From IMG/VR virus record IMGVR_UViG_3300042261_000529, positions 1-41,788 of that record: a stretch of DNA of 41,788 nucleotides; one strand, given 5' to 3'. The notes below the pieces were generated by a model. It was not told the origin of the DNA and did not search any database. It was given only the letters and a program-made list of their open reading frames with translations. Source of the stretch: a virus. Numbering within the stretch: position 1 is the stretch's first letter; the number at the start of each line of letters is the position of its first letter. Positions 8,392-33,451 of this stretch are shown here, in pieces. Made by a program: the position numbers and the translations under genes.

Positions 8392-8414
8392 AGAGCGTTG
8401 TGCGTTATGGACCT

Positions 8415-8420
8415 ATTATA
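8415..8420 (-). promoter_or_regulatory. Sigma70-like -10 box ahead of the VWA gene
   Basis: TATAAT on the minus strand in the 46-base gap before the VWA protein start, in GCGTATAATAGG. A possible -35, TTGAGC at 8436-8441, sits 15 bases upstream, which is short of ideal. It could begin the VWA transcript independently of the deformylase gene. Confidence 0.45.
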
Positions 8421-8437
8421 CGCAAGAAATCTGCCGC

Positions 8438-8899
8438 TCAAACCACCGCTGGGACAGTTTCCAAAGTGTCCATTGTGATTCCGTCGAGGTGGTCTATCTC
8501 GTGTTGTATGATTCTTGCTGTAAGACCAGAATAAGTCTCAAAATGTGGTTTGCCTTTGAGATCTCTGTATTTGACCTTGATAGTTTCTGCTCTATTAATG
8601 GGTAAAAATGTTTCAGGAATACTCAAACACCCTTCTTCCATCATACACTTATTTTCTGAAAACTCAACGATCTCAGGGTTTATCATTTTAAGAATATTTC
8701 CTTCGTCGGAAACTATAATGATTCTTTTAAGGACACCGACTTGGTTTGCGGCAAGTCCAATACCCTCACTTTGGAGCATTGTATCCACCATCGAAGCACA
8801 AAAAGTGCGGAGCGTATCGTCGATATTCGCAACTCTTTTTGCCTTTTGTGTTAAGACCTTATCGCCTAGAGTTCTGATGGTAAGCATATCAGACACCAT
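8438..8899 (-). CDS. def: Peptide deformylase
   Basis: A 153-aa metal-dependent peptide deformylase, which removes the formyl group from the N-terminal Met of new proteins. All three catalytic motifs are present: GIGLAANQVG (46-55), EGCLS (89-93, with the metal-binding Cys91) and QHEIDHLDG (132-140, metal His133 and His137, catalytic Glu134). It is shorter than most bacterial forms (about 165-190) and ends soon after motif 3, as in other marine phage deformylases, where photosystem proteins such as D1 have been proposed as targets. The ATG comes two bases after the stop of the 50-aa gene. A second in-frame ATG four codons later (MLTIRTLG) could be the true start. Confidence 0.97.
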   Translation of the reverse strand: MVSDMLTIRTLGDKVLTQKAKRVANIDDTLRTFCASMVDTMLQSEGIGLAANQVGVLKRIIIVSDEGNILKMINPEIVEFSENKCMMEEGCLSIPETFLPINRAETIKVKYRDLKGKPHFETYSGLTARIIQHEIDHLDGITMDTLETVPAVV

Positions 8900-8901
8900 A
8901 T

Positions 8902-9054
8902 CTAGTATATTTTATATATCAAAAAGAAGAAGCGCCCTGAGAGGCGCTTCTTGAGTGCTTGGCGACGTGCCTTTGCTTGTCGGAGTGCTTGCGGTTTCAG
9001 TTTCCGCTTCTGCTCCTTTTTAGAGTGGTGCTGCCAGTTTGGAGTGTTTGCCAT
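8902..9054 (-). CDS. Small very basic 50-aa protein ending inside a terminator
   Basis: An ATG at 9054 opens a 50-codon frame: MANTPNWQHHSKKEQKRKLK at the start, then Ala/Arg/Lys/Gln-rich helix-forming sequence to about residue 38, then RFFFLIYKIY. The first 38 residues are strongly basic and likely helical, suggesting nucleic-acid binding, and I recall similar short basic proteins in cyanophages. The frame is odd because residues about 35-45 are encoded by the arms and U-tract of a strong terminator hairpin, so the stop codon lies 17 bases beyond the T run. The stop is two bases ahead of the deformylase ATG. Function unknown. Confidence 0.7.
   Translation of the reverse strand: MANTPNWQHHSKKEQKRKLKPQALRQAKARRQALKKRLSGRFFFLIYKIY
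8921..8952 (-). terminator. Rho-independent terminator within the end of the 50-aa frame
   Basis: On the minus strand AAGAAGCGCC, a six-base loop TCTCAG, then GGCGCTTCTT: a perfect 10-bp stem followed by C and TTTTT. It is one of the two best terminators in the window. It would end transcription before the stop codon of the small gene and before the deformylase gene. Confidence 0.8.
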
Positions 9055-9076
9055 CTTGGGCTCCGTATATACAAGT

Positions 9077-9103
9077 ATTATACCAGCAGGAGCACCAATT
9101 ATA
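9077..9103 (-). promoter_or_regulatory. Two TATAAT boxes ahead of the 50-aa gene
   Basis: TATAAT occurs twice on the minus strand, at 9098-9103 and 9077-9082, in the 65-base gap after the nucleotide-sugar dehydrogenase gene. Neither has a convincing -35. GCTCC and GGAGC flank the second box and could form a loose hairpin. A promoter for the small basic gene is plausible but weakly supported. Confidence 0.35.
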
Positions 9104-9119
9104 TCTGGCGTGTGCCACT

Positions 9120-9902
9120 TCAGAAACCGACCCCTGCTCGATGAATATCGTTGAGTTCACGAATGTATTTAACAAGTGGACTATCTGAAAACTGCTCTAG
9201 TTCATAATTGTCTTTGATAAAGCAGTGTCCACCCCAACCAAAACTACCATCCCAACCAGGAACTTGAGTGTGAGAGGTTCCAATACGCTCATCCATTCCT
9301 GCCATATTTCTAAAATCATCGAATGTAGATTCACACCCAAGATACTTGTGAATCCTATAAAGTTCATTATAAATGGTAACTTTAGTTGCTAGGAAGAAGT
9401 TTTCTGCATACTTAATTAAAGCAGCACTACGAATATCAGTAATCCCCACACGCTTTGTTTTAAGTTTAGGAAGTCTCTTAACGAAGATTCGAGCAACTTT
9501 CTTTGCTGCTTTTTCATTACCACCAATAATACAGAAGTCTTGATTCTGGAACTTCTCAATATTATGGCGAGAATCTAAGTATTCTGGACTGTGAAGAACG
9601 TGAATCTTTTTATACTTCTGCTGCGCCTCATAGTAGTAATTGGGATTTGCAGTTGACTTGCAGCAAACTGGAGTTTTAGATCCAATATGAGTATTAACTT
9701 GAGTTAGAATATTATCAAGCAATCCGTGATTATCTTCCTTTGGAGTGTCTACACAAACAAAGACTGCATCAAACTTTTCACCATCGTGATTAGCAATCAC
9801 ATCATCACTTAATTTAGGATCAATAACTACCTTTTCTTCATCGGTAAAAATAGAAGCAACGGCAGATCCTACATAACCGTGCCCAACAATCATTACTTTC
9901 AT
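9120..9902 (-). CDS. Short nucleotide-sugar dehydrogenase-like protein (UDP-glucose/GDP-mannose dehydrogenase family)
   Basis: A 260-aa protein with the NAD-binding start MKVMIVGHGYVGSA (Rossmann glycines 7-12), CVDTP (50-54), HSPEYLD (104-110, matching SPEFL of the family), IKYAENFFLATKVTIYNEL (163-181) and GGHCFIKD (224-231) with the catalytic Cys227. These are the hallmarks of enzymes that oxidise UDP-glucose or GDP-mannose to the uronate. Usual enzymes have 390-450 residues; this one ends just after the catalytic Cys region and lacks the C-terminal sugar-nucleotide domain. Activity on a normal substrate is therefore uncertain. Its start overlaps the gp46 stop by four bases. A role in phage or host glycan chemistry is inference. 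Confidence 0.85.
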   Translation of the reverse strand: MKVMIVGHGYVGSAVASIFTDEEKVVIDPKLSDDVIANHDGEKFDAVFVCVDTPKEDNHGLLDNILTQVNTHIGSKTPVCCKSTANPNYYYEAQQKYKKIHVLHSPEYLDSRHNIEKFQNQDFCIIGGNEKAAKKVARIFVKRLPKLKTKRVGITDIRSAALIKYAENFFLATKVTIYNELYRIHKYLGCESTFDDFRNMAGMDERIGTSHTQVPGWDGSFGWGGHCFIKDNYELEQFSDSPLVKYIRELNDIHRAGVGF

Positions 9903-11608
9903 ACTATCCTCGAAAAACCTTTTACTTTATCAAATTTTATCACATTCTCAAACTTATCGTGTAAGTCTGATTTATGGGAAATCACAAAGATATTAGCATC
10001 CTTAATGACATAACGAATAATCTTAAGAAACTCATCGGTGCCGAATCCATCAAGTGAGGAATCAAATACCTCATCCATAATCAGCAGATTGGTATTGACG
10101 GAATTTTTGACTCGGGCGACTTCTCTCCAAGTGAAGAGGAGGGCAAGGTCGATTCTCATTTTTTCACCCTCACTGAAAGAACTATAAGAAAAGTCTTCGT
10201 GAATGGGTGATTTGACCGTTTCGTTAAACTCTTCATCCAGATGGAAATTGATATAAAAATCCATCATCTGAAGATAACGATTCACCTGCTGATTTATGAA
10301 CGGAAGATACTTCTTAATGATCTTCGTTTTTACACCATCATCCCTAAGTAAGGAATGGGTAAAATCGTAATAAACGATTTCTTCTTTTTTCTTAGAAAGG
10401 TCTTCGAATGTTTTTTGGAGATTTTCTCTGAATTTTTCTAGCTTCTCATGCTCAGTATTTCGGTTTGCAAGGTTTTGGGTAATAGTTTGAATTTCAGATT
10501 CAAGGTCTCGGATTTGTCTCTGGTTGAGGGAAATCCTAGTATTGTTTTGAGAAATCTCATGGTTGAGTTTCGTAATCTCCTTAGATAGAACTGTGAATTG
10601 ACGCTCTCGTTCCTGTTCTAACTTTATAGTCTCCTCAAGTTCTTGAAAACCTTTCTGGAGTTCCTTTGCTTTATTTTGAGCGTCTGTAATTCTATTTAAC
10701 CGAAACTCTTCCTCTATAGTTTGAGTGCAGGTAGGGCAGACCGTATTTTCAGTAAAAAACTTATGCTCTTTAGTAATGACAGATACTTTCTGTGAGATTT
10801 TACCCTTAAGATTGTTAAGCTTTACTAACTTATCACCAGCACCAACGACTTCTTCTTGTTCTTTTGTATAAGAAAAAATTTGCTCTTCTGTTTTAGCATT
10901 TTCGGTCATATAAATGCCAACTTCAGAGTCTAAATTGGCAATCTTTTCTTTATTGGCATTGATATTGGCATTACCACGATTCTCAAGTTCTTCAATAAAC
11001 TCTTGCTGCATTTTAAGTTTTTCTTTAATGGAATCTTTTCTAAATTCCAGAGACTTAACTTGCTCTTTCTTTTCACGAATTTTATCTTTAATAAGATTAT
11101 TCATCGCAGAAAAAATACGAATATCAAGAAGATCCTCAATCACTTCTCGACGATTCGCAGTAGTTAATTGCATAAAAGGTACAAAAGTGCTACTACCCAA
11201 AATTACAATTTGAGTAAAAGACTTATAGTTGACCTTTAGAATATTTTCTTCCAGAATCCTTTGCATAGCACGATCATCTGCTTCTTTATGCAGAGGAGTT
11301 CCATTCACCTCAATATCAAAAACACTTGGTTTAATGCCACGACGAACAAGATAATTTCTATTGTTGAGAGAAAATTCAATCTCAACTAGACAATCTCTCT
11401 CATTAGTTGTATTAACTAATTGAGGTTTATTAATTTTACGAAATGGTTTGTTAAAAAGAACAAAGGTAAGTGCATCTAAAACAGTTGACTTACCTGCCCC
11501 ATTTGTTCCGATAATAAGGTTCGTATTATATTCTTGAAAATTAATTTCTGTGAACTGATTACCAGTGCTTAAAAAGTTTTTCCACTTAATTTTTTTAAAA
11601 ACAATCAT
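9899..11608 (-). CDS. 46: Recombination endonuclease subunit gp46 (Rad50-like)
   Basis: A 569-aa SMC/Rad50-type ATPase that works with gp47 to resect DNA ends for recombination-dependent replication and host DNA breakdown. Visible are Walker A GTNGAGKST (34-42), two long coiled-coil arms (about 170-290 and 300-415), a zinc hook CPTC (291-294) between them, the ABC signature FSEGE (478-482), Walker B LLIMDEVFD (508-516) and the H-loop FVISHKSD (541-548). The length agrees with T4 gp46 (560). The start overlaps the DUF3110-like gene by four bases, and gp47 lies one gene further upstream. Confidence 0.97.
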   Translation of the reverse strand: MIVFKKIKWKNFLSTGNQFTEINFQEYNTNLIIGTNGAGKSTVLDALTFVLFNKPFRKINKPQLVNTTNERDCLVEIEFSLNNRNYLVRRGIKPSVFDIEVNGTPLHKEADDRAMQRILEENILKVNYKSFTQIVILGSSTFVPFMQLTTANRREVIEDLLDIRIFSAMNNLIKDKIREKKEQVKSLEFRKDSIKEKLKMQQEFIEELENRGNANINANKEKIANLDSEVGIYMTENAKTEEQIFSYTKEQEEVVGAGDKLVKLNNLKGKISQKVSVITKEHKFFTENTVCPTCTQTIEEEFRLNRITDAQNKAKELQKGFQELEETIKLEQERERQFTVLSKEITKLNHEISQNNTRISLNQRQIRDLESEIQTITQNLANRNTEHEKLEKFRENLQKTFEDLSKKKEEIVYYDFTHSLLRDDGVKTKIIKKYLPFINQQVNRYLQMMDFYINFHLDEEFNETVKSPIHEDFSYSSFSEGEKMRIDLALLFTWREVARVKNSVNTNLLIMDEVFDSSLDGFGTDEFLKIIRYVIKDANIFVISHKSDLHDKFENVIKFDKVKGFSRIV

Positions 11609-13505: not shown

Positions 13506-13925
13506 TTAATTATCTTTAGTATTATAAAGATCTTCTAGTTTCTTTCTTGCATCATCAACGGATGCAATATATCCCATTTTATCAGAAACTTTAACTGGTT
13601 CTGATGTTTCCTCAAGATTTGGAAATGGTCTTTTTGTTGGATACTCTTCCAAATATTCTTGATAAAATTTAATCATATTCTTATCTTTAACTTCTGTCAT
13701 TGTGATTATTTTTTCAACGTTGACAACATAAAAATCATCATTAGAAAATTTGATCCAAGGTTCTAACTTTAAAAGTGTTCCTTTTGACTTTGGAATATAT
13801 TTTAATATTACGGGATTTTGCATTACAATTACAGCAATTTCTGTTGTATTGTCAATACAAACTAAAGAGAATACTTCTTCTCCTGAAACCATTTTCAGTA
13901 TTGCGTAAAACTCTTCTCCCATCAT
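13506..13925 (-). CDS. Hypothetical Sm/SH3-like beta protein
   Basis: A 139-aa protein (138 if the second of two adjacent ATGs is used). The first half, FYAILKMVSGEEVFSLVCID through NPVILKYIPKSKG, predicts as a small five-strand barrel of the Sm/SH3 type, seen in conserved proteins of cyanophages as far as I recall. The second half is charged and helical (PSKRPF-like linker, then DDARKKLEDLYNTKDN at the end). Its start overlaps the carbamoyltransferase stop, so the two are co-translated. RNA binding would fit an Sm fold but is not shown. The gene lies between the carbamoyltransferase and gp55. Confidence 0.65.
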   Translation of the reverse strand: MMGEEFYAILKMVSGEEVFSLVCIDNTTEIAVIVMQNPVILKYIPKSKGTLLKLEPWIKFSNDDFYVVNVEKIITMTEVKDKNMIKFYQEYLEEYPTKRPFPNLEETSEPVKVSDKMGYIASVDDARKKLEDLYNTKDN

Positions 13926-15589
13926 TTATTATTGATTAAATAGTTTCCGATGACAAGATAATCTATATTCATATTTAGAAACGCTTGGACCGCATCATCT
14001 GGGGTTTCTACAATTGGTTTTCCATTATCGTTAAAAGATGTATTTAATAGTACAGAAATTTTAGATATATTATTAAATTTTTCTAGCAACAAAGTTAATT
14101 TGGGATTATATTCATTATTTACCGTTTGAATTCTACAAGTGTTGTCTTCATGAGTTATTGCTGGAATTTCACTTCTTTTTTCTTCTTTTACTGTTTGTGA
14201 ATAGCACATATAAGGACTATCAAATCCTTCTTCAAAATAATCAGAAACAAATTCTTCTAATATAACACCAGCAAATGGTCTCCAATATTCTCTATGCTTT
14301 ACTTTCTCATTTAATATATCTTTGTTTTCTTTTTTATTTGGATTCATTAATATTGATCTTGATCCTAAAGATCTAGGTCCATATTCAGACCTTCCCTGAA
14401 ACCATCCGATAATTTTATTATCGTTTAATAAATTTGCAACTACTTCATATAGATCTTCATATGAAGAATACGCAATGTATTCAGTGTCTTTTATTGCTTC
14501 TTTAATTTCATTATTCGAATATTCTTTACCCAGTAGTGCAATATTTTTAGGTAACGATATGGTTTCTTTTTGTTTTGCTACTCCATAAGCAGCTGCTCCA
14601 AAATGTAATCCAGGATCACTAACAAATGGAGATATGTAAATATTTTTTTCTGGAAAATGTTTTCTAAGTAAAGTGTTTCCTAAAATATTTAAAAACACTC
14701 CTCCAGACAGACATATATTTTTTTCCAAATAACTTTTATCTTCCAATACTCTAAAATAATCCAGTAATGTATTTTCGAAAATAGTTTGTACATAAGATGC
14801 TTTGTCTTCTGCACTTAGATTGGCAATTCCAGTCGAAAACATTGTTTGGTCATCAACTGGAATAACTTTAAAATACATTGATGGGTATCCCAATTCTGTG
14901 ATTTCATAATGATGTAAAACATCAAATTTACTAATTTTTTTACCATATGCGGATAATCCCATTACTTTACCCGCAAAAGTTTCTACATATCGATGATCTA
15001 TTGGACTAATATTTTTATTAATTTTTTGGCAATAAATGTGATGGGCCCAAGATTGATAATATAGTCCTATAACATCTCTAGTTGCGAAATGTTTAAATAC
15101 GCGATTCTTTTTATCAAAATATCCAAAAGAAGAAGTTTCTAGATACAACTGTTTTGTTGTATCTGCTGTTATATTGCTTCCTCCACCATCAAAAATCACA
15201 TAACAACCATCATTAAAATCACAACTGTATATCGATGAATATGCGTGTGCTTCATGATGTGAAATTATTTTATACTTTGCATTTGGAAATTGTTGAGTAA
15301 GAAATCTATCAAGTTCTCCAAGACTGTGGCTGAAATGAAATTGTCTATCACCTAAAGAAGGTAATATGATTAGATCAATGTCCTTCTGAGATAAATTTGC
15401 TAAAGAAAGACAATAATCAATAGAATTTTTAGGCCAATTCCCTTCATATTTAAATTTTGTTAGTCTTTCTTCTTGTATACTGCAAATGTGTTTACCATCA
15501 ATGAATAGCGTTGCACCAGAATCATGAGTCCAGTTTGTATCATTGTGAGTATCCCAATCTAAAGCACCATATAATCCAAGTATTTTCAT
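13922..15589 (-). CDS. NodU/CmcH-type carbamoyltransferase
   Basis: A 555-aa carbamoyltransferase, expected to move a carbamoyl group from carbamoyl phosphate to a hydroxyl of a small molecule or sugar through a carbamoyl-adenylate. Visible are HDSGATLF (22-29), the metal-binding ISHHEAHAYSS (109-119), FDGGGS (133-138) with a DGGG ATP-binding turn, SGGVFLN in the middle, and the C-terminal GRSEYGPRSLGSRSIL and NTSFNDNGKPIVETPDDA that define the family. Full length for NodU-type enzymes. The gene looks more AT-rich than the flanking UvsW and capsid genes and sits between core genes, consistent with an acquired auxiliary gene. The substrate is unknown. Confidence 0.93.
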   Translation of the reverse strand: MKILGLYGALDWDTHNDTNWTHDSGATLFIDGKHICSIQEERLTKFKYEGNWPKNSIDYCLSLANLSQKDIDLIILPSLGDRQFHFSHSLGELDRFLTQQFPNAKYKIISHHEAHAYSSIYSCDFNDGCYVIFDGGGSNITADTTKQLYLETSSFGYFDKKNRVFKHFATRDVIGLYYQSWAHHIYCQKINKNISPIDHRYVETFAGKVMGLSAYGKKISKFDVLHHYEITELGYPSMYFKVIPVDDQTMFSTGIANLSAEDKASYVQTIFENTLLDYFRVLEDKSYLEKNICLSGGVFLNILGNTLLRKHFPEKNIYISPFVSDPGLHFGAAAYGVAKQKETISLPKNIALLGKEYSNNEIKEAIKDTEYIAYSSYEDLYEVVANLLNDNKIIGWFQGRSEYGPRSLGSRSILMNPNKKENKDILNEKVKHREYWRPFAGVILEEFVSDYFEEGFDSPYMCYSQTVKEEKRSEIPAITHEDNTCRIQTVNNEYNPKLTLLLEKFNNISKISVLLNTSFNDNGKPIVETPDDAVQAFLNMNIDYLVIGNYLINNK

Positions 15590-17534: not shown

Positions 17535-18075
17535 ATGTTGATCCGTCTGGTTTTAGGATATTATATACAGTATACTTGAATGTTGCCTCTGCTGTAAAGT
17601 AGTTGATATCCGTATCTTGTGCTTCAAATTCCAATGAATTTAGTGAAACTGGATAGAGATCCTTAAACTTAATAAGTGCAACGTCTCTATAATTGCTATT
17701 TAAAATTCTCAATGTTCCGTCACAAAAGGCATTTTTGGGATCTTTTACTTGATCTTGAGTAATAAAATCGCTGTATTGTGAGGTTACTTCTGGAAATCCC
17801 AAACCAATTAACCAGTTATGAATTGCCATATAATTTTCCATATTTTCATCAACTAAAAACCTTAGTGTAAAGTCACCATAGGTCAATTGATCACCAGGAA
17901 CATCTATCATTTTTAAATAGCTGTTCTGTTGTAAAGTTGATAAAGCAATTTCTGGTATTCTAGATCCTGTTGAAAAAAATGTTACTTTAGGAAATTTTGC
18001 TAAAGTAAATTTAAATCCAACAGCGGACAGAAAATTTCTATTCTGTATCTGATTTGCAAAGGGATTGGTAGCCAT
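17524..18075 (-). CDS. 3: Tail completion / sheath stabiliser protein, gp3-like (tube-fold protein)
   Basis: A 183-aa protein. Its pattern (NFLSAVGFKFTLAKFPKVTFF at the start, PEIALSTLQQNSYLKMIDVPG, YGDFTLRFLVDENMENYMAI, and a closing strand FTAEATFKYTVYNI) is that of the beta-rich tail-tube fold shared by T4 gp19, gp54 and gp3. Length fits gp3 (176), and in cyanomyoviruses I recall gp3 lying between gp23 and uvsY, exactly this place. gp3 caps the tube at the head end during assembly. A second tube-type protein (gp19) is encoded at 24607. The fold call is better supported than the choice of gp3. Confidence 0.65.
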   Translation of the reverse strand: MATNPFANQIQNRNFLSAVGFKFTLAKFPKVTFFSTGSRIPEIALSTLQQNSYLKMIDVPGDQLTYGDFTLRFLVDENMENYMAIHNWLIGLGFPEVTSQYSDFITQDQVKDPKNAFCDGTLRILNSNYRDVALIKFKDLYPVSLNSLEFEAQDTDINYFTAEATFKYTVYNILKPDGSTYES

Positions 18076-18686
18076 TATTTTTTCTTAGGTGATACTTTTG
18101 CATTTGTAACTTCTGGTGACGTTATGCGGGTATAAACTGTTCTTTTACCCCATTTTTCTGGTGTAATATTATTCCCAGCAATATCTTTAGTAATTTGTGG
18201 TGATACATCAAAAGAAACGTCTTTATTTACATTACCAGTTTTTCCAAAATCTCCAACATCATTAATTTTTGCAGTTGTTGACTTTGTTTTTTTTCCCATT
18301 GGTTTTGTAGTCAAATCTAAACGAGAACCATAAGGTATTGATGGTTTTCCTTCCTTACCCTTTGGTGCTTGTCCTTCTTTATATTTAAATGGAACAGCAG
18401 CATTTCTAGTTGTCCAATTATGAGGTTCACCAGTTGCTGTTACTTTATTTGGAGTAAATTTATCACCAGGTGCATAAACTGATGCCTTCACTGGTTTCCA
18501 TCCATATCTTTTTTCTTGTTCTGAGTTCCATTTTCCAGGTTTCCAATCTTTACCTTTTCCAAATCCTTGCTTATAATTTTTGTATGCAAGAACTGGTTGT
18601 GATTTGGATGGTGTTACTTTAGGTGCAAGTGAGTTCCAAAACTCTTGGATATTTGCATCCTCGCAGAATTTTTTATACGACTTCAT
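18075..18686 (-). CDS. Basic hypothetical protein with capsid-targeting-like N-terminus
   Basis: A 203-aa, lysine- and proline-rich protein without a recognisable enzyme motif. It begins MKSYKKFCEDANIQEF, which resembles the N-terminal capsid targeting sequence of T4 internal proteins (MKTYQEFIAEA). The rest is low in hydrophobics, with KPGKWNSEQEKRYGWKP (49-65) and a lysine-rich end, as expected for a DNA-associated head protein. It lies directly after gp23, with a TAAATA-type late motif in front and coupled translation into the gp3-like gene. An internal head role is inference; the lysine-rich composition and the N-terminal pattern are what is seen. Confidence 0.7.
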   Translation of the reverse strand: MKSYKKFCEDANIQEFWNSLAPKVTPSKSQPVLAYKNYKQGFGKGKDWKPGKWNSEQEKRYGWKPVKASVYAPGDKFTPNKVTATGEPHNWTTRNAAVPFKYKEGQAPKGKEGKPSIPYGSRLDLTTKPMGKKTKSTTAKINDVGDFGKTGNVNKDVSFDVSPQITKDIAGNNITPEKWGKRTVYTRITSPEVTNAKVSPKKK

Positions 18687-18756: not shown

Positions 18757-20142
18757 TCACATAAGGTTTGCAACCTTGACTCTTCTGTAGTAACGGTTTG
18801 CGTTAACAGTAAGAGCACCAGCACCCTTGGTAAGACCCTCAGCGAATGGGTTTGCAACCATTCCGTAACGGGTCTTAAAGCCGATTTTTGGCTGGAAGGT
18901 GTTCTCGCCAACGGCACGTACCATTTGGAGAGGAACATATGGGCAATAGAAGAGACCAGCGTCATATGGGCTGGAACCCTTGTAACCAACAACGTAGTAC
19001 TGGTTAGCAGCAACGTTTGCAGCATAAGGATCGATATATACACGATACTTACCTTGCAGAACACCAGCGAAGGTGTTACCAGTGTCATCAACGTTAAGGT
19101 TAGCGTTGAGAGCAGGGGTGTAATCGAGAACACCTGCCATTGCAAGTGCTGAAGCAACGTCAGCAGAGCAGATGATGGTGTTGCCCTTTCCTCTACGAGT
19201 TCTTTGTGCGATTGCGTTAGCGTCGCGCTCGATTTGGAAGATCAGACCCTTAAACTTCTCAACCGACCAACGACCGTTGGAGTCAACGTCGAGGTCAAAA
19301 GTACCTGCGGTAGCGGTATTAACTTGAGCACCAGACTCAGCAACTCTGTAGATGGTTCTGATTACTTCGCGGTTGATCTCAGCAAGAATCTCAGTTGAGA
19401 GAATATTTGCGAGTTCAGCCTCAGCATTCAGACCGTGAATTGCCTTGAGGTCTTGAGCGAGCTCAAGTGAGTACTCAGCCTTGAGGGCACGTGACTTAGC
19501 AGTTACGGTTACCTTCTCGATGCTGAATGCCATCTGGTTGAAGTTATCACCAGTGGTTCCGAGATCTTCAGCATCATCGGTTCTCATACCCTGACCTACG
19601 CTGTAGGTAGTTGCAGTTTGACCTGCTTCAGGATTGAGAAGACCTGGGTTAGTACCAGTTTGACCAGTAGTACCCATACCAACGGAAGCACCAGTCATGC
19701 CGTTGGAAAGATCGAAACCTTCGTTTTGACCCGAGAATGCGGAATCAACTTCGTTGTAGAAGGTTTCTGGGCCACCCTGATCGGTGTAACGTGAGCGCAT
19801 TGCAAAGATCAGTCCAGTAGGACCGTTCATTGGCTGAACGCCAGCAACGTCATAAGCAATCAGGTTAGGCATCGAACGTCTGATCAGTGAGATCAGAACG
19901 GGGTCGAAACCTTGCATAGCACCAGTAGTAGCAGCGCCCAGACCTGGATCTGAACCCGAAGCAGTGCTATTGGTTGGACCTTCGAAAAGGAACTCACGCT
20001 CCTCACGAATTGCTTTTTCTTGGTTTTCGAGCAGGATAGCGGTCACCATTCTGCGATGTGAATCCTTGATTGGATCGAGACCCTGATAGTCAAGGAGTGG
20101 GGACCACTTCTCCTGCAGATGTTCGGAATGGAACATTTGCAT
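18757..20142 (-). CDS. 23: Major capsid protein gp23
   Basis: A 461-aa T4-type major head protein that forms the hexamers of the shell. The start (EHLQEKWSPLLDYQGLDPIKD, residues 8-28) and the internal stretches MPNLIAYDVAGVQPMNGPTG and GRWSVEKFKGLIFQIERDANA are diagnostic. A probable gp21 cleavage site LFE|G lies at residues 52-55, which would remove a 54-residue prepeptide during maturation (T4 removes 65). The ATG has a good ribosome site (AAAGAGGT, eight bases away). A late-like TATAGATT lies upstream and a strong terminator follows, consistent with very high late expression. Codon use appears richer in G and C than in the neighbours. Confidence 0.98.
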   Translation of the reverse strand: MQMFHSEHLQEKWSPLLDYQGLDPIKDSHRRMVTAILLENQEKAIREEREFLFEGPTNSTASGSDPGLGAATTGAMQGFDPVLISLIRRSMPNLIAYDVAGVQPMNGPTGLIFAMRSRYTDQGGPETFYNEVDSAFSGQNEGFDLSNGMTGASVGMGTTGQTGTNPGLLNPEAGQTATTYSVGQGMRTDDAEDLGTTGDNFNQMAFSIEKVTVTAKSRALKAEYSLELAQDLKAIHGLNAEAELANILSTEILAEINREVIRTIYRVAESGAQVNTATAGTFDLDVDSNGRWSVEKFKGLIFQIERDANAIAQRTRRGKGNTIICSADVASALAMAGVLDYTPALNANLNVDDTGNTFAGVLQGKYRVYIDPYAANVAANQYYVVGYKGSSPYDAGLFYCPYVPLQMVRAVGENTFQPKIGFKTRYGMVANPFAEGLTKGAGALTVNANRYYRRVKVANLM

Positions 20143-20190: not shown

Positions 20191-21357
20191 TCACTTCTTA
20201 GCAACTTTGTCTAACAGTGAAAGATATGCACTCATTGATGGTGAATATGATTCTTCAATCATATCTCCTTGTGCTACTTCTTCTGAAAGATTCTCAGTTA
20301 CAACTTTTGGAGCACTAGTATTTGCTGGAAAATATGATTCTCTCAGAGTTACTAGTTTCTCACGATAGTCTGCTTCACTATCAAACTCAACATTTTCTGC
20401 TAGAGAAGCGAGTTTATCTCTCTGGGAAAGTGCTAGACCTTCAGAGACTTCTGCAAAGATCACATCAGCGACCGACTCTGCTAACCTCTTATTAAGAGCA
20501 ATATTCTTTTCGATTTGCTCGTTGAGTTTTTCTTCCATTTCATCAAGTTTGTCTACCATATTATAGACAACATCATATTTTTCTTCAGGGATTGATACAT
20601 AATGTTCTTCAAAAAGTCCTCTCAGACCTTGGATGAACGATTCAGTCATTTCTGACTGAAGTCCAGCCTCAACTGCGAGAGCGTTCTCATTGAACCACTC
20701 ATCAGCAACATACTCAAGATAAGCGTCAACACGCTCAGTTAATGCGAACTTAATATTTTGTAGTTCTTCGACCATTTGTTGAGCATAAACTTCTTGTAGA
20801 TGCTCTTTGATGGTAGCAACTTTAGATCTGATTGCTGCTTCGAAAATGGTTTTTGCCTTTTCTTGGAATTCTTCGGAGAGTTCTTCACCAGCGAGAAGTG
20901 CATTAACATCTTCCTCGATGTCAAATTCTTCTTCTACTACTTCTTCCTCTTCCTCTTCCTCTTCAGACTCTACATCTTCGAGATCCTCATCCTCTTCAGC
21001 TTCTTCTTTCATTTCCTCATGATCTTTCTTATGCTTTTTCTTAGAGGATTTTTCTTCCTTCTCATCTTCGTCTTCTTCAGACTCTTCCTTTTCAGCTTCT
21101 TCCTTAACAGCATCAGCTTTTGCAGCTTTAGCGTTAACAACATCTCTTACTTGAGCAAGAGTTGCTGAAGGATCTTTCAGCTTACCTGATTCGTCATCTG
21201 GACGATAATTTTCTGGAGTTGGGCCACCTAGATCCTCCCAAGCACCAGATTGACCAGGAGTTGCAACTGGAGTTGCACTCCCGCGAGGTGCTTCAGCTGG
21301 AGCAGCGCCTTTCGTTACTACGTTTTCCATTTCTTGTAAATTGCTACCAACGGACAT
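20191..21357 (-). CDS. 22: Prohead scaffold (core) protein gp22
   Basis: A 388-aa scaffold protein that fills the prohead and is degraded by gp21 during maturation. It has a Pro/Ala/Gly-rich N-terminus, a long highly charged Glu/Lys region (about 83-150, with a run of glutamates), and helical coiled-coil sequence to the end. TLRESYFP provides a likely L-x-E|S cleavage site. T4 gp22 is 269 aa; cyanophage versions are longer because of the acidic stretch. Located between gp21 and gp23 in the conserved order, with a perfect late promoter motif 33 bases upstream. Confidence 0.93.
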   Translation of the reverse strand: MSVGSNLQEMENVVTKGAAPAEAPRGSATPVATPGQSGAWEDLGGPTPENYRPDDESGKLKDPSATLAQVRDVVNAKAAKADAVKEEAEKEESEEDEDEKEEKSSKKKHKKDHEEMKEEAEEDEDLEDVESEEEEEEEEVVEEEFDIEEDVNALLAGEELSEEFQEKAKTIFEAAIRSKVATIKEHLQEVYAQQMVEELQNIKFALTERVDAYLEYVADEWFNENALAVEAGLQSEMTESFIQGLRGLFEEHYVSIPEEKYDVVYNMVDKLDEMEEKLNEQIEKNIALNKRLAESVADVIFAEVSEGLALSQRDKLASLAENVEFDSEADYREKLVTLRESYFPANTSAPKVVTENLSEEVAQGDMIEESYSPSMSAYLSLLDKVAKK

Positions 21358-21399: not shown

Positions 21400-22050
21400 T
21401 TAAAGATTTGATAGAAAATCCTGGAACAATTGTACCTTATGTTCCTGAAGAGTTCTCTCATCAACTAGTGTATTAATTCTACGCTTTGTTGATTCAGCGA
21501 GTTTTTCACGAAGGATTCCACCTTCCCAAACCCACTCTTTACCTTCCATAATTCCTGAAACAAAAGCATCAGGGGCAGAAGGATCAGCAACGATATCAGC
21601 AGCAGTTGCAAGCATAAAATCTTCGCCTACAATTTTATGACCTTCATTAGTCATCTTTAGTGAACCAACACCACGAGAAGAAACACCAAGCATTACGCCT
21701 TCGTCTAAAAGTGACTTAGCGATCTTACCCATTGGGGTCTCAAGAAGTTGTGCTTTACCTCTAAAATTATTTCCTTCTTGAGTAAGAGAAACAATTTTGT
21801 GAGAAACACGATCAAGGTTAACAGTTGGACCATCGGGGTGTCCAAGTTCACCTAGAGCACGACCTTTTGCAACAAAAGTTTCATTGTATCTACCAACTTC
21901 TCTTGCGAGAGTTTCCATAGGATACATTCTTCCGTTACGGTTACAAATGTTTCCTTGTAGGAATACACCTTCGATGTACATCTTTTTAGATGCACCTTTT
22001 CCTTCGGTGATAAATTTAACTTCCGATACTTCTTCTGTGATGAGTTTCAT
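21400..22050 (-). CDS. 21: Prohead protease gp21
   Basis: A 216-aa serine protease of the T4 prohead family (herpesvirus-like fold), which cleaves core and shell proteins at L/I-x-E sites. Visible are the N-terminal YIEGVFLQGNICNRNGRMYP, the catalytic His71 in GELGHPDGP and the catalytic Ser in LGVSSRGVGS (121-130). Length equals T4 gp21 (212). GGAG four codons upstream of the ATG gives a ribosome site at the end of the preceding gene. Confidence 0.96.
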   Translation of the reverse strand: MKLITEEVSEVKFITEGKGASKKMYIEGVFLQGNICNRNGRMYPMETLAREVGRYNETFVAKGRALGELGHPDGPTVNLDRVSHKIVSLTQEGNNFRGKAQLLETPMGKIAKSLLDEGVMLGVSSRGVGSLKMTNEGHKIVGEDFMLATAADIVADPSAPDAFVSGIMEGKEWVWEGGILREKLAESTKRRINTLVDERTLQEHKVQLFQDFLSNL

Positions 22051-27484: not shown

Positions 27485-27721
27485 TCACCAATCTGGATAT
27501 TCCCACTGAATAGACTTTTTTTGATCTTTTCTACTTCTTTGTATTCTTTTTATTGTACAATCTTTACATTCATATGAGTATGCAGAAGGAAATACTCCTC
27601 TATTCTTACGAGTTAAATAAAAATCACTAGTTAAATTTTTTACCTTCTTACAAATTCTACATTTTCTGTCTGAAAATAATATGTGCTCTAATTCTATTTG
27701 ATCATCAAAGTCATATTCCAT
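27485..27721 (-). CDS. Small zinc-ribbon protein between gp17 and gp18
   Basis: A 78-aa protein starting at the ATG at 27721, which shares a base with the gp17 stop (TAATG). It has two Cys pairs, CRIC at about residues 22-25 and CKDC at 51-54, with FYLTRKNRG between and a basic tail (IKRIQRSRKDQKK). This spacing looks like the zinc-binding part of HNH-type endonucleases or recombination VII-like proteins, but the HNH catalytic residues themselves are not visible. It could be a remnant or a stand-alone zinc protein. No function can be assigned. It is the only gene between terminase and sheath. Confidence 0.7.
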   Translation of the reverse strand: MEYDFDDQIELEHILFSDRKCRICKKVKNLTSDFYLTRKNRGVFPSAYSYECKDCTIKRIQRSRKDQKKSIQWEYPDW

Positions 27722-29409
27722 TATCTGTAATCCCACATATAGGAGCGATCACCATATTCGTCTACATTCCAAACTTCTAGTTGATTATCATTTTTTCCAG
27801 CTCTCATCCATCTGTCACCTGTTGTTTTTTCTACAAATACTTCATCATCTAATCCATCAACAATAAATCCAAAGGGTGCCATATCTTGCTCAATTTGATT
27901 TTTTTGTTCCTCATAAATTCTTTTACGAACATCGTTGTCCGTCATCTCTTTAAAGTATTGCTGAGCAACTAACCAAGAGAAGATGACAAGACACATAGCA
28001 AGGTCATCATTGCAACCCTCTTCTGCCATAAAAGTGTTGTGACGTTGAGTAAACGTTGTTAATTCACTAATGATATCATAGTCATTAATAATTAGTTTGT
28101 CATCTTCGATAAGAGTTCTTAAATTGGAACATCCTAATTTTTTGACTGCAGAAGTCATTCGAACTCCGAGTTGAGACTTCTTACCACTAAATCCAGATCC
28201 AACGATTTGACCTGCTCTTCCTTTCATTGCACACATAAGAACATTATCATACTCAAGATCGAAATGCAGAATATTTGCCACTTGATCTCCAATATCATTA
28301 ACCTCGACTAAAACCCAAGAATCATTGTATGCCTTTGCTATTTGATTAATGATTGATGGAAAAAGCATCGGTTTAATTTCATTATTTTTATATTTTGCTA
28401 CTGCCCTGTATGGGAAGTTTGTAATATCAAAAACAATAAATGCTGAATAGTCGCTCCCAACACCGCGTGCAACGTCAACGGTTATTAGATAATTATGCTC
28501 TTCTATTGGATTTTGGTAAATATCTAATCCTTTATTTCTCTTTAATGGATCATCATAAACCAGAGTTCTCAGTTTAGATGGATTGATGAGAGTATCAACC
28601 GATCCTAAGAACTCACACTCAAACTCAACCTTAAACTGTTGTTCAGATGTGTTAGCAATCGTCTGTGCTTTCCATTTCTCATCTCTTCCTGGTACTTCCG
28701 ACCAGTGAACATCTGTTGGGATATATTCATTCTTACCTCTCTCAGCATCGTGCCACATACGGTAGAAATGATTCATACCGCGAGGAGTAGATACGATAAT
28801 TACTTTTGTGCTTTGACCTGAAGATATAGTAGGATAAACAGAGGCAAAGAAGTCATCAGCAATGTGATTTGGGATAAACGCGAACTCGTCCAAAAAGATG
28901 ATATTATACGATCCACCTCGAACAGCAGATGAAGATGTAGAGTTTGCTGAAATCTTGGATCCATTTTCTAACTCTAGAGAACCTTTATTCCAAGACAAGA
29001 TACCTTGTTGCATCCAACGTGGCAAGTTTTCATAAGCAAGTTGTAATCTTTGGAGAAGATCCCTCGCAGTAGATGCTTTGTTCGCCAATATAGCTATATT
29101 AACGTTATCATTAAAGATAGCATAATGTAACAAATATGAAACACAAGTCGTAGATTTACCCGTCTGGCGAGGCATTTTACAGATATTAAATCTATGTTCG
29201 TGGAAATTCTTAATTAATTTTTCTTGGAACGGATACATCTTAAATGGTTGTAGTCCGTGATCCAGTGTTACAATTTTAATATAGTTTCTAGCAAAGTAGA
29301 CAGGATCTTCCTTACATCTGACAAACTCAAGAATTTGATCTTGTGTAAATTGTATAGGCGTGTTTGCCCTCTTAAGGTTAGGGTTGCCTAAGTAAACATC
29401 TTCACTCAT
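27721..29409 (-). CDS. 17: Terminase large subunit gp17
   Basis: A 562-aa packaging motor and headful nuclease. The ATPase domain has Walker A RQTGKST (81-87) and Walker B IIFLDEFAF (170-178); the RNase H-like nuclease begins at TVDVARGVGSDYSAF (about 310-324), with further acidic residues in VEVNDIG and GCNDDLAMCL. The motor domain drives DNA into the gp20 portal and the nuclease cuts concatemers. T4 gp17 is 610 aa. AAGGAG seven bases before the ATG gives a good ribosome site. No intron or inserted nuclease is seen inside it. Confidence 0.97.
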   Translation of the reverse strand: MSEDVYLGNPNLKRANTPIQFTQDQILEFVRCKEDPVYFARNYIKIVTLDHGLQPFKMYPFQEKLIKNFHEHRFNICKMPRQTGKSTTCVSYLLHYAIFNDNVNIAILANKASTARDLLQRLQLAYENLPRWMQQGILSWNKGSLELENGSKISANSTSSSAVRGGSYNIIFLDEFAFIPNHIADDFFASVYPTISSGQSTKVIIVSTPRGMNHFYRMWHDAERGKNEYIPTDVHWSEVPGRDEKWKAQTIANTSEQQFKVEFECEFLGSVDTLINPSKLRTLVYDDPLKRNKGLDIYQNPIEEHNYLITVDVARGVGSDYSAFIVFDITNFPYRAVAKYKNNEIKPMLFPSIINQIAKAYNDSWVLVEVNDIGDQVANILHFDLEYDNVLMCAMKGRAGQIVGSGFSGKKSQLGVRMTSAVKKLGCSNLRTLIEDDKLIINDYDIISELTTFTQRHNTFMAEEGCNDDLAMCLVIFSWLVAQQYFKEMTDNDVRKRIYEEQKNQIEQDMAPFGFIVDGLDDEVFVEKTTGDRWMRAGKNDNQLEVWNVDEYGDRSYMWDYR

Positions 29410-29421
29410 ATCAATGCTCCT

Positions 29422-30726
29422 TTATGTTAAATCATAAAAACCTAAAGAACCTATGCAAAGAGCACTACCAGACACTGACCTTGCTGCTAGAGTATAAGTA
29501 TCACTGACTTTTGATTGAGTTCTTCCGAGTTGCAAATCAAAATTATATTCTTGATCTACACCTAGAGGAACATTTGCTTTGTTTGCGGAAGAAACATAAT
29601 CATTACGAACAATTTCTCCACCAGTCATTGATGTTGATGCAGTATCCATTTGAACATTTGGAGATCCATCCAATACCCAAGATGGTGTGGTAAGAGTTGC
29701 ATTTTTAATTAATGCAACTTCTATTGTTGCAGATTGACTTGATTCTGGAATAAAAGAAATTTGAGTTGGAAGAATTATTGCATCTTCTCTTCCTGGTGCA
29801 AGACGAATGCTTACAATTGGAGCAAACAAAGTTGATCCAACAGAAACTTGTGCGATTCTTCTTGCAATACCCTCTGCTTGTTTTTTCTCATATCCACCAT
29901 TGGACTGAATAGATACACAAATCTGTTTCATCGTTGACGAAGATGTTGTGATTCCTGTGTTTAGAATCTCATAACGAACTGGAAGATTTACAGTTGTCAT
30001 ATAAACACTATCAAGAGTGTTTGCGTGATTAAAAATATGTGCAGTATGAAACTTTCCGTTATCATTGATAAATCCAACTCTTACTGCACCAACACCTAAC
30101 CACTCATATTCACTCACAAAAATTTGTGCTTTGGATATATCTAAACGAATTCCACTTGGATTGGAATCATTTGGACCAGATCCATCTAAAGTATCACGAT
30201 TCCATTCTGATTGTGGAACAGTTACCGTAGTTCCAACTCCAGATATTGCAGTTCTTTTTATGATGTTTAGTTGAGAACCATTGAGTTCTAACATCACTCC
30301 ATTTTCTGATGATGCATATCCTGCTCTCTGAACCAGATTTTCCTTTGCAGGATTAAACACAAATGTTTGAAGAACTTGTAATGACTTGCCTGGTTGATAT
30401 GAGAATACCCTTTTACTTTCACGAATCAAAGAACATCCTGCAGTCGTTCCGATTCCTAATGTTGCAGTGCTTTGAGCGGTTATGAATCCTACTGTAGAAC
30501 CTGCACCAACAACTACATCATCAAAATCTCCGTCTTGTGAATATCTATGAGTAGAATCAAAAATTGTAAATGGATTAGATACTTTTACTCTACCAAATAG
30601 ATCACCATTAAATCCCTGTCCTACTGGATCAAATATTTCACCATAACGATCTGCCTGCATATACACTTCAAAGAGTGTACGCTCTTGATTCAAATAATCC
30701 TGCGTGTTCTTATTCCACTGAGCCAT
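29422..30726 (-). CDS. Virion structural protein between terminase subunits (434 aa)
   Basis: A 434-aa protein beginning MAQWNKNTQDYLNQERTLFE. It is rich in Ser, Thr, Gly and Val with many short beta-type segments (GAGSTVGFITAQSTATLGIG, AGSGVGTTVTVPQSEW-like parts), typical of fibre, whisker or head-surface proteins in cyanophages. I recall homologues in cyanomyoviruses annotated only as structural proteins. In T4 nothing corresponds to it between gp16 and gp17. It starts three bases after the 107-aa gene and gp17 begins 12 bases downstream, so it belongs to this late operon. Function not assigned. Confidence 0.7.
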   Translation of the reverse strand: MAQWNKNTQDYLNQERTLFEVYMQADRYGEIFDPVGQGFNGDLFGRVKVSNPFTIFDSTHRYSQDGDFDDVVVGAGSTVGFITAQSTATLGIGTTAGCSLIRESKRVFSYQPGKSLQVLQTFVFNPAKENLVQRAGYASSENGVMLELNGSQLNIIKRTAISGVGTTVTVPQSEWNRDTLDGSGPNDSNPSGIRLDISKAQIFVSEYEWLGVGAVRVGFINDNGKFHTAHIFNHANTLDSVYMTTVNLPVRYEILNTGITTSSSTMKQICVSIQSNGGYEKKQAEGIARRIAQVSVGSTLFAPIVSIRLAPGREDAIILPTQISFIPESSQSATIEVALIKNATLTTPSWVLDGSPNVQMDTASTSMTGGEIVRNDYVSSANKANVPLGVDQEYNFDLQLGRTQSKVSDTYTLAARSVSGSALCIGSLGFYDLT

Positions 30727-30729
30727 AAA

Positions 30730-31053
30730 TTAAACCCAATCTAACTTTGATGGATGATATCTCTTAGAGTCTTTTACTTTGTATAGATTGTTAGAAGAAT
30801 CTACAGAATAAATTGTCTGAACAATACAACCAGGATATTCATCTTGAAGATGTTCCGCTAGTTGTTGATTTGTTGGAATTCCTGATTTTGTGTTGAGGGA
30901 TAATCTATGAATGCTTCCTTGATATAAAATATCTGCCGCAAAATTTTCACCCACATCCTCTTGTTCTTGAGCAGCAGCATTCATATAGAGATTTCCATTA
31001 AAATCTCCTGCAATATTAACGCTTTCTGATAGAAATTGTTTAAAACTTTTCAT
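30730..31053 (-). CDS. 107-aa protein with capsid-targeting-like N-terminus
   Basis: Begins MKSFKQFLSESVNIAGDF. The first ten residues match the pattern of T4 internal head proteins (MKTYQEFIAEA), and LSE|S between residues 8 and 11 fits the gp21 cleavage rule (L/I-x-E before A, G or S). The rest (NAAAQEQEDVGENFAADILY, then QGSIHRLSLNTKSG, LAEHLQDEYPGCIVQTIY) predicts a small mixed fold. The prediction is that the protein is packaged into the prohead and cleaved. Its ATG overlaps the preceding gene's stop by four bases. The function of the mature part is unknown. Confidence 0.7.
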   Translation of the reverse strand: MKSFKQFLSESVNIAGDFNGNLYMNAAAQEQEDVGENFAADILYQGSIHRLSLNTKSGIPTNQQLAEHLQDEYPGCIVQTIYSVDSSNNLYKVKDSKRYHPSKLDWV

Positions 31054-31220
31054 TTTACCAGATCTACAATTGTTTCTTGAGTTTTAAAATATAATTTAAC
31101 GTAGCACTTTGATATATTTCTCAATTGCTCAATATCTTCACAAGCATCAATCTCACGAGAAATTTTTGCATACTCAAAATTCTTATTAAGATTCTCAAGG
31201 GTAATTTTATCGGGATCCAT
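31050..31220 (-). CDS. 56-aa hypothetical protein
   Basis: A small open frame filling most of the gap between the modular protein and the 107-aa protein. It encodes MDPDKITLENLNKNFEYAKI, then REIDACEDIEQLRNISKCY, and ends QETIVDLVK, an all-helical charged sequence with two Cys. The start is two bases after the preceding stop and its own stop overlaps the next ATG by four bases (ATGA), a layout that strongly supports translation. I recall similar short helical proteins (SREID.C.DI.QL) beside terminase genes of other cyanophages. No function is known. Confidence 0.72.
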   Translation of the reverse strand: MDPDKITLENLNKNFEYAKISREIDACEDIEQLRNISKCYVKLYFKTQETIVDLVK

Positions 31221-31222
31221 AA

Positions 31223-33010
31223 TCAATTACAATTCCAACGACGTAATGCTTTATTTATTCTGCTATCAGGGTCTCTCGCAGTTTCAGCAGATGTTAAACG
31301 TTTTTTCATTCCACTCATTCTACTACAAAAATTCTTTCTGCGTTGTGCTCTTTTACCCGTTGGTTTCTTTTCAGTTACTGCAGTTTGTAACTTGGAACCT
31401 GGATTTTCACGACGATAAGCATCCACTGCTTTTTGACTTAATCCATCAGTCTTATCTTTACGATTAACTTTTTGCCAATCTTCACCAAGTTCTGTTCTCC
31501 AATCAGAAAACTCATAAGAGTCTGCAAGTGGAAGTTCGATACCAGTTAGTTTCTTTTTGGCAATATCTGATCCCTGTTGACCAGACTGTGCTCTTTTTCT
31601 TATTTTATCATCTCTCTGCGCTTTTCTTGCATCTGCAGCAGTATGTCCAATTTCAAAACTTATCCCCTCACTTACAGATTTCCATCCACCACCTTTCGAT
31701 TTGTACCATTTTGATGCCCATCCATTTGCATAAGCACTTGGATAAACATCAAATTTTTTCCTTGCAAGAGATTTTGCTCTTGACCATAATGCTGGATTTG
31801 TTGGTTTATTTTCTTCTTCTATCGAAACTTCTTCGGGTACACAATTAGGAACATTTCTCTTTCCTTTCTTCTTCATACCAACTTGCTTATATCCAGTCCA
31901 ACACGCTTCATCTACCTTATGCTCTCCACTCTCAAGGTAATCTGCAGCGGTATCAATGTAGTCTGCTGCTTTGGTAATTTTTGATTGCACCCAAGCCTCA
32001 ATTTCACCCTCACCTTTCATTTTTTTCTGCAATCTCTTTGCTGCTTTAATGATTGTAGAAAGTTCGGATCTTGCCATTGAGTACTCATGATCCATTTCTT
32101 TTGATTCTGTCTTTATCGGAATAGTTGTTCCTTTTACTAAGTTGCGTATCTTTTCTTGTCTTCGAGCTTGTTTGGAACCTTGAGGACCAATATTAAAACT
32201 CATCTGTTCATTTGCAGGATGAACCTGAGCAATATCGAATTTCATTTGATTGGGTGTGAGCATTGATGGTGTGGAGTACATTGCCCAAAAACTTGGACCA
32301 TACTTACACTCAGATTGAGTTTCATTTTTTTGACACTTTGGACAATACCTAATCATCTCTGACTGCTCTCCTATGTTATTTGATACCATTTTAGGTTTAC
32401 CACCCTTACCTTTACGATTCGCTACTGGATCTGCTTTCCTCTTCCTTCTTACGGCACTGGCAATCGCCTTTGCACCCCCTTGAGAACGTAATTGGGATGC
32501 TTTCTTGTTTGATAGGCACTTGGGTTTCGACTCCCCCTCTTCTCTCGCACATGGTCCGATTGCCTCTCCTTTAGTGTTATAACGTTTCCAACCACCTTCT
32601 GGATGATTTGGATCAAACCAATTACGAAGGTCTTCATTAATATCTTTAAATTTTTTGCGATGCTCTTTTTTAGCATCTTTTTCCATTTTTAATAATCTAG
32701 TATAATAATCTGGAATTTCGTCCAAATGCTGAAGAGCAATTTCCATTGCTAATTTATGATTTTTAGTGTGCTCGTGTTCTATAGGTTCACCAATTTTTAA
32801 TTGCTTCTCAATAAAAGAAACCTCTAAACGATGCTTTTTAGCAATTTGTTCTGGTGTCTTATAAGGTTTCATCTGCTCATTAAATGGTGACTTTGATAGA
32901 GTGTTTTCACCCTTTTGTCTTTTTTTACGAGCAGCACAATGAGCACGTTGGGAAAATTCACGTGGATTATTACAGTCTATTGACTTTTTATAATCTTTAG
33001 ACCAACTCAT
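31223..33010 (-). CDS. Multi-module basic Cys-containing protein
   Basis: A 595-aa, Lys/Arg-rich protein that reads as a string of separate short modules: NPREFSQRAHCAARKKR (15-31); a helical EHEHTKNHKLAMEIALQHLD unit (78-97, DUF5661-like); WFDPNHPEGGWKRY with CAREEG and PKCLSNKK (131-170, DUF5872-like); CPKC...C (223-235); MARSELSTIIKAAKRL (312-327); CWTGYKQVG...VPNC (370-390); NPALWSRAK with YPSAYANGWASKWYKSKGGG (405-442); and FCSRMSGMKK...INKALRRWNC (561-594). Each resembles units I recall from other phages and large viruses. The overall role is unknown. Its basic nature and place between gp16 and gp17 fit DNA packaging or head interior, by inference. Confidence 0.75.
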   Translation of the reverse strand: MSWSKDYKKSIDCNNPREFSQRAHCAARKKRQKGENTLSKSPFNEQMKPYKTPEQIAKKHRLEVSFIEKQLKIGEPIEHEHTKNHKLAMEIALQHLDEIPDYYTRLLKMEKDAKKEHRKKFKDINEDLRNWFDPNHPEGGWKRYNTKGEAIGPCAREEGESKPKCLSNKKASQLRSQGGAKAIASAVRRKRKADPVANRKGKGGKPKMVSNNIGEQSEMIRYCPKCQKNETQSECKYGPSFWAMYSTPSMLTPNQMKFDIAQVHPANEQMSFNIGPQGSKQARRQEKIRNLVKGTTIPIKTESKEMDHEYSMARSELSTIIKAAKRLQKKMKGEGEIEAWVQSKITKAADYIDTAADYLESGEHKVDEACWTGYKQVGMKKKGKRNVPNCVPEEVSIEEENKPTNPALWSRAKSLARKKFDVYPSAYANGWASKWYKSKGGGWKSVSEGISFEIGHTAADARKAQRDDKIRKRAQSGQQGSDIAKKKLTGIELPLADSYEFSDWRTELGEDWQKVNRKDKTDGLSQKAVDAYRRENPGSKLQTAVTEKKPTGKRAQRRKNFCSRMSGMKKRLTSAETARDPDSRINKALRRWNCN

Positions 33011-33016
33011 TAAATA

Positions 33017-33451
33017 CTAAGACTCTTCTTTATTATTTAGAAAACCTTGTTTGAGTAGTTTTGATAATTCAGCAGTTGATCCAACAAATAAAGAATTATT
33101 TGTAACATTTGCTGTTACTTTTGTTGACTCATCCTCAACATCTTTTAGTTTCTTTTGCAAATCCATCAGTTTATCTGTCGTATCTGCAACACTCTTAATC
33201 AACTGTCCAGCAACTTCGTATGCTCTTGGACTTCCACCTTCACCTGCCAATTCTAAAATTCCATTAATTGCTTCTTGCCCCTTTTCAATCAAGGAATATA
33301 GATTTGCCCTTGTATAATCATAATCTTTTTTGATGTCTTGTTTTTGATCTGGATCTTTTATAACTTCTATCTCATTGACCTCAGTGTCAATCTCAACAAT
33401 ATTGCTTTCAGTTGAGAGAAGTTTATCTAGTTTGTCAAAAGAATTTGTCAT
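33017..33451 (-). CDS. 16: Terminase small subunit gp16
   Basis: A 144-aa protein of the T4 gp16 type, which recognises concatemeric DNA and regulates the gp17 ATPase and nuclease. Central DYDYTRANLYSLIEKGQEAI (43-62) followed by SPRAYEVAGQLIKSVADTTD (74-93) is the conserved core with two helices; the ends are acidic and basic. T4 gp16 is 164 aa. It lies just after gp15, as in T4, but four genes separate it from gp17. Confidence 0.9.
   Translation of the reverse strand: MTNSFDKLDKLLSTESNIVEIDTEVNEIEVIKDPDQKQDIKKDYDYTRANLYSLIEKGQEAINGILELAGEGGSPRAYEVAGQLIKSVADTTDKLMDLQKKLKDVEDESTKVTANVTNNSLFVGSTAELSKLLKQGFLNNKEES

Follow-up and report, generated by a model that had tools for sequence, protein, structure and literature searches.

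The small open reading frame at positions 30730..31053 of this DNA raises the question of whether its product is addressed to the phage head by its first ten residues and carried with the genome into the next host. The window, that is, the whole stretch of DNA analysed (41,788 nucleotides), is a 41.8-kb IMG/VR fragment of a T4-like cyanophage with relatives in the Kyanoviridae, and almost all of its genes lie on the minus strand. The coordinates given in the first-pass annotation were correct, and the gene is encoded on the minus strand, with its ATG at 31053 and its stop at 30730. The encoded 107-aa protein belongs to PHROG_1742 (E 9.5e-33), matching the profile over nearly its full length (residues 1-101 versus profile positions 1-98 of 108). 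The gene is placed in the head/packaging operon, in the stretch flanked by gp16 (33017-33451) and gp17 (27721-29409), which has been described as a hot spot of Synechococcus-phage genes (PMC3037559). Only 3 bases separate it from the downstream gene for a virion structural protein, PHROG_1645 (29422..30726, minus strand; E 1e-103), whose same-position genes were detected by mass spectrometry (MS) in S-SCSM1 (_31) and S-SZBM1 (_190). As in the window, a PHROG_1742 homologue stands directly upstream of the virion/structural gene in S-SCSM1, Sf-FS3 and S-SZBM1, and in S-SRM01 it precedes an unannotated gene equal in size to that structural gene. On the other side, the TGA of a 56-aa ORF (31050..31220, minus strand) overlaps the ATG of the 107-aa ORF (ATGA), which suggests coupled translation of the two, and a 595-aa neighbour with DUF5661 and DUF6321 (31223..33010, minus strand) is a leaderless copy with a different N-terminus of a protein whose relatives in other phages (contigs L283, L251 and L265) carry the leader at their start. 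The window also encodes gp20, gp21, gp22 and gp23, including the gp21 prohead protease (21400..22050, minus strand; PF03420, E 5.1e-36) as presumed processing enzyme, the gp22 head scaffold/core protein (20191..21357, minus strand; PHROG_237, E 3.1e-101) as presumed docking partner of the leader, a role taken from T4 (PMC9026906), and the gp23 major capsid protein (18757..20142, minus strand; PF07068, E 4.4e-151). Scanning the window for the late promoter TATAAATA gave 3 matches versus 3.2 expected, i.e. chance level. Between uvsW and the gp55 region, a carbamoyltransferase-like ORF (13922-15589; NodU type by eye) is probably an auxiliary gene.

The model for such addressing is the capsid-targeting sequence (CTS) of T4, where residues 1-10 of IPIII are enough for packaging, positions 4 and 7 serve targeting and positions 8 and 10 processing, and gp21 cleaves following [L/I]xE (PMC9026906). 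The 107-aa protein opens with MKSFKQFLSESVNIAGDF, and its CTS-like leader MKSFKQFLSE|S (residues 1-10; 31024..31053, minus strand) agrees with T4 wherever a position has been tested there (aromatic 4, F7, L8, E10), gp21 being predicted to cut at the junction of codons 10 and 11 (31023/31024). The MKSFKQFLSES start was read properly at the outset; its L8-S9-E10 followed by S conforms to the gp21 rule published for T4, L/I-x-E (PMC9026906), and the proposed match to the leaders of T4 internal proteins is borne out at positions 4, 7, 8 and 10. With IPI, IPII and IPIII, PHROG_1742 shares a 10-residue leader in which positions 4 and 7 are aromatic, position 8 is I/L, position 10 is E and position 11 is A/S; common to both systems are also the placing of one leader before unrelated bodies and the encoding of gp21/gp22/gp23-type heads alongside. 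The T4 internal proteins are packaged, whereas packaging of PHROG_1742 is what we infer here; they are small anti-restriction proteins, inhibitors of GmrSD (PMC12373910), whereas cyanophage leader cargo comprises metabolic and nucleic-acid enzymes, with nicotinamide-nucleotide adenylyltransferase (NMNAT) nearly universal in cyanophages. T4 gp61.1 (NC_000866 19130..18966, minus strand, locus L163; 54 aa, hypothetical) also has a CTS-like start, MKTFKEFIKE; the literature searched does not list it with the T4 internal proteins.

Within PHROG_1742 the leader is strongly conserved. Homologues were found by tblastn in 135 deposited cyanophage records, the alignment starting at query residue 1 in 60/60 among the matches listed. 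When the window copy is counted with 80 IMG/VR homologues, F7 and E10 are invariant (81/81), position 4 is F or Y in all 81, position 8 is I or L in 76 and M in 5, and position 11 is S or A; this conservation is partly selected, because one of the two patterns used to gather the IMG/VR homologues sat inside the leader, a selection of which the tblastn set is free. The family was recovered again by leader-only scans (contigs L299, L470, L500 and others). Conservation extends past E10 into VNI.GDF.GN in all homologues, so this region may serve a further role, which speaks against a reading as a CTS only. With a strict leader defined as K/R2, F/Y/W4, F/Y/W7, I/L/V/M8 and E10, and chance calculated from the position-specific frequencies of S-CREM2, about 5.5e-5 matches are expected per protein start, or about 0.003 in the 46 genes of the window, where one was seen.

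The first-pass annotation had proposed that a common tag is fused to different cargoes and that a scan of cyanophage proteomes would reveal more of them. Among 23 ORF starts chosen in 13 cyanophage genomes on positions 2, 4, 7 and 8 only, E10 occurred in 21 (background 6.6%), and A, G or S at position 11 in 16 of these 21 (background 23%); the binomial P values are inflated by relatedness, several different families being involved, however. The same scan on T4 retrieves IPII and IPIII. A leader-only DNA pattern matched at least 120 IMG/VR contigs, whereas controls gave 0 matches when the same bases were re-spaced and 1 match when E10 was changed to K. In 257 Gb of bacterial and archaeal genomes there were 3 matches, none a convincing gene start: one at the C-terminal end of a long ORF, one in a 43-codon ORF and one in a stretch internal to a gene, in our reading that for carbamoyl-phosphate synthase. 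The leader is therefore not a product of chance and is specific to phages. Its matches in IMG/VR are nearly always gene starts; for the pattern with F4 (n=179), all complete matches except one open an ORF of >40 aa, at a median of 6 codons from the upstream stop. UvsW N-termini (six matches to the Tyr-4 pattern) and a pair of very short ORFs were discounted as matching by chance. Once the first 12 residues had been cut away, 306 leader-bearing proteins fell into up to 80 unrelated BLAST clusters, an upper limit as distant relatives may split and one or more of the clusters (UvsW) reflect chance, and the proposal of one targeting tag on varied cargo is well supported by this diversity, by the phage specificity and by the several virion proteins that carry the leader. 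gp21 was present on 8/20 long leader contigs, about the expectation for fragments of 200-kb T4-like genomes.

The largest cargo cluster is the cytidylyltransferase/NMNAT, and other annotated cargo includes a GNAT acetyltransferase, adenylate kinase, glucosaminidase, a DPBB protein, SAM lyase, DUF6267 and DUF192. A 2H phosphoesterase (L486:9512-10042) with the leader MKKYLEFIKE|A and a sub-threshold match to Pfam Acb1 (anti-CBASS; E 3.2e-5) is a possible head-packaged anti-CBASS protein. ADP-ribosyltransferase-like motifs were seen by eye in four leader-bearing proteins (L546:676-1383, L266:3736-4152, L388:9845-10408 and L536:2794-3579), with weak PARP/DUF3990 matches for the first and none for the other three; T4 Alt is a head-packaged ADP-ribosyltransferase too. 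Leader genes also tend to occur in small groups (P-SSM2 99763 and 100269; S-CREM1 137282 and 138886; S-SZBM1_191 and _192), reminiscent of the variable loci for internal proteins in T-even phages. A large protein of S-SZBM1 (S-SZBM1_194; L012 5254-7377) contains TYREFIAE|G in mid-sequence, near-identical to the T4 IPIII leader.

Published virion proteomes link the leader to the particle. In four cyanophage proteomes, 6/9 leader proteins were detected by MS versus 1.6 expected (P 0.0016), an association that the first-pass annotation had put forward as a check; the enrichment leans on NMNAT, because the pooled signal without this enzyme is 4/8 detected (P 0.057). The S-CREM2 virion proteome lists 52 proteins in Table 3 (PMC10665884). 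Relative to its 219 CDS, 5/6 proteins with a relaxed leader were detected versus 47/213 others (Fisher P 0.003), and 3/3 with the strict leader (Fisher P 0.013), so the leader is not equally common in non-virion proteins, the outcome named beforehand as damaging to the idea. The virion leaders are those of a SAM hydrolase (MKDFDSFLEE), a kinase (VKRFDAFLTE) and a cytidylyltransferase (MKNFSSFLTE), with close variants in the virion proteins ORF13 (MKDLHSFLTE) and ORF136 (MQTFSMFFSE). The MS-detected Cas9-like ORF12 (7704-10313) carries a displaced motif, RFASFMAE|A, at about residues 17-25, and its S-CRM01 homologue a displaced LSLDSFIKE|A. Leaders were also found on the detected NMNAT of S-SCSM1 (MKSFLQFLKE|A), the detected T4-GC190 protein of S-SM1 (MKKFSAFLNE|A) and, shorter by one residue, the detected cytidylyltransferase of S-SZBM1 (MRFRQFIIE|A). 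In 12/12 genomes with an intact gene, NMNAT bears the leader or a near variant of it, and the enzyme was MS-detected in virions of S-CREM2, S-SCSM1, S-SZBM1 and S-SM1; the S-PM2 gene is split and leaderless, and its product was undetected in virions. NMNAT/cytidylyltransferase T4-GC190, the SAM hydrolase and the APH/ChoK-like kinase thus share an N-terminal leader with PHROG_1742, whereas their bodies are unrelated to it. MS detection of NMNAT, SAM hydrolase and APH/ChoK-like kinase in virions has been reported (PMC9602691, PMC10665884, PMC9146016, PMC3037559), and packaging versus contamination was left open for the NMNAT, kinases and SAM hydrolase of purified particles (PMC9602691, PMC10665884).

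It is quite likely that the first ten residues of the 107-aa protein form a capsid-targeting leader that functions as in T4, the protein being packaged, cut and ejected. By analogy with T4, the protein would be made late in infection alongside the head proteins, its leader (predicted to form a helix and carrying aromatic side chains at 4 and 7) would dock in the gp22 prohead core, and gp21 would cleave after E10. The remaining 97 residues, beginning SVNIAGDF, would stay in the head alongside the DNA and enter the next host on ejection. The claim that this particular protein is capsid-targeted stands as far as the leader rule goes and less well in the proteomes, since the homologues SSCSM1_30 and SSZBM1_191 are absent from the reported virion proteomes of S-SCSM1 and S-SZBM1, which counts against a packaged-and-injected protein. 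Poor tryptic peptides could account for non-detection of the window sequence and are ruled out as the reason for SSCSM1_30 and SSZBM1_191, each with at least two ordinary tryptic peptides predicted; their absence would be explained by a low copy number or by removal as the head matures.

The same absence from two virion proteomes would be expected if the leader brought the protein to the prohead as a transient, scaffold-like core component, destroyed or expelled at maturation and not injected. The constant location in the packaging region, next to a virion structural protein, and a second conserved L65-x-E67 within the body also point this way. We consider this unlikely, however: presence in only 4/13 whole cyanophage genomes is a patchy distribution that would be surprising in a core component, L65-x-E67 falls within a predicted helix with no A, G or S after it, and T4 core proteins are cut into multiple fragments (PMC9026906), whereas there is a single good site here. 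Distinctly less probable is docking of the leader to the neck, portal or tail, or its use as a virion tag in which neither gp22 nor gp21 plays a part; virion enrichment is silent on which part of the particle is involved and the docking partner is presumed from T4, but the identity with the T4 rule includes E10 and A/S11, residues tied to gp21 processing, and the E10-to-K pattern is almost absent. That an ordinary N-terminal helix happens by coincidence to resemble the T4 leader is scarcely credible, for although the motif is short and a chance family exists in the UvsW N-termini, the controls of 0 and 1 against at least 120 contigs and the three cellular matches in non-genes already contradict it.

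Under the preferred reading of a T4-like leader, the body of the 107-aa protein would be the cargo. Its AlphaFold2 model, for which the input alignment was used without four rows from deposited phage records, predicts, within the putative mature protein, a beta-beta-alpha-beta domain over residues 37-83 (30805..30945, minus strand), with pLDDT about 80-90 over most of the domain, a low-confidence helix for the leader and a mean of 68. The PHROG_1742 entry annotates neither function nor leader; the family is described here as a leader plus this domain. Among the best structure matches outside the family is the MS-detected SSCSM1_29 of S-SCSM1 (BFVD, E 3.9e-4), in which profile comparison puts the matching domain at residues 364-420 of 517. 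SSCSM1_29 has a single [L/I]xE|[A/G/S] site, IEE|SVR, at the start of the shared domain, an odd echo of LSE|SVN in the 107-aa protein. Foldseek with the predicted body returned T7 Gp2 and the RNA polymerase epsilon subunit YkzG weakly (E about 0.6), and this fold likeness is kept as a low-probability lead. Similarity to the T7 RNA polymerase inhibitor Gp2 was not found at the sequence level, profile comparison being negative (hhalign probability 0.1%), and comparisons with Pfam, PDB-sequence and T7 Gp2 profiles gave no function for the body. The label 'effector' that PHROG_1742 had been given is putative.

T-even phages are known to have CTS-type leaders, and reviewers have suggested that T4-like phages load varied proteins by means of them (PMC9026906; PMC12373910); in the literature searched, which included few subscription papers, there was no paper extending the CTS to cyanophages or their virion enzymes. 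We lean towards the view that T4-like marine phages share one loading code, in which a cleavable 10-residue leader, a common tag fused to many unrelated proteins, would deliver dozens of them at infection. With the same leaning, and jointly with the code itself, its cargo would include the NAD-synthesis enzyme, SAM hydrolases, ADP-ribosyltransferase-like proteins, adenylate kinase, the Acb1-like phosphoesterase, the Cas9-like nuclease with its displaced leader and PHROG_1742. Since the tag stands on dozens of unrelated proteins of T4-like phages from metagenomes, enzymes known from purified cyanophage particles included, these phages probably inject a ready-made protein set together with their DNA. 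MuF-fused and polyvalent head-packaged effectors are likewise virion-borne and thought to be delivered with the DNA, but load via fusion to a head-protein domain and not via a cleavable 10-residue leader (PMC9503650). If the loading code holds, the leader would predict the injected proteome of uncultured T4-like phages, whose injected proteins could be listed from sequence only, and metabolic take-over of marine cyanobacteria would start at time zero, ahead of phage gene expression. A recognisable leader also makes packaging versus contamination directly testable for virion enzymes, and the leader proteins provide a starting list for new anti-defence proteins.

A variant of the leader occurs in the other candidate of the window, the 203-aa protein MKSYKKFCEDANIQE (18075..18686, minus strand). 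The two had been described as sharing their leader pattern and no other visible similarity. BLASTP indeed aligns them meaningfully only in the leader (8/14, E 0.067), and aromatic 4 and F7 are kept in MKSYKKFCED; the processing part of the pattern is not, as C8 and D10 replace [L/I]xE. Deposited homologues were found in S-PRM1 and DSL-LC03 only; they adjoin gp23 and begin VKTFNQFREE and MKSFNQFCKD, respectively, so that the family has either C8/D10 or R8/E10 while the targeting aromatics persist. Because aspartate at position 10 of the T4 CTS blocks processing and leaves targeting intact (PMC9026906), this family could be targeted to the head and left uncleaved.
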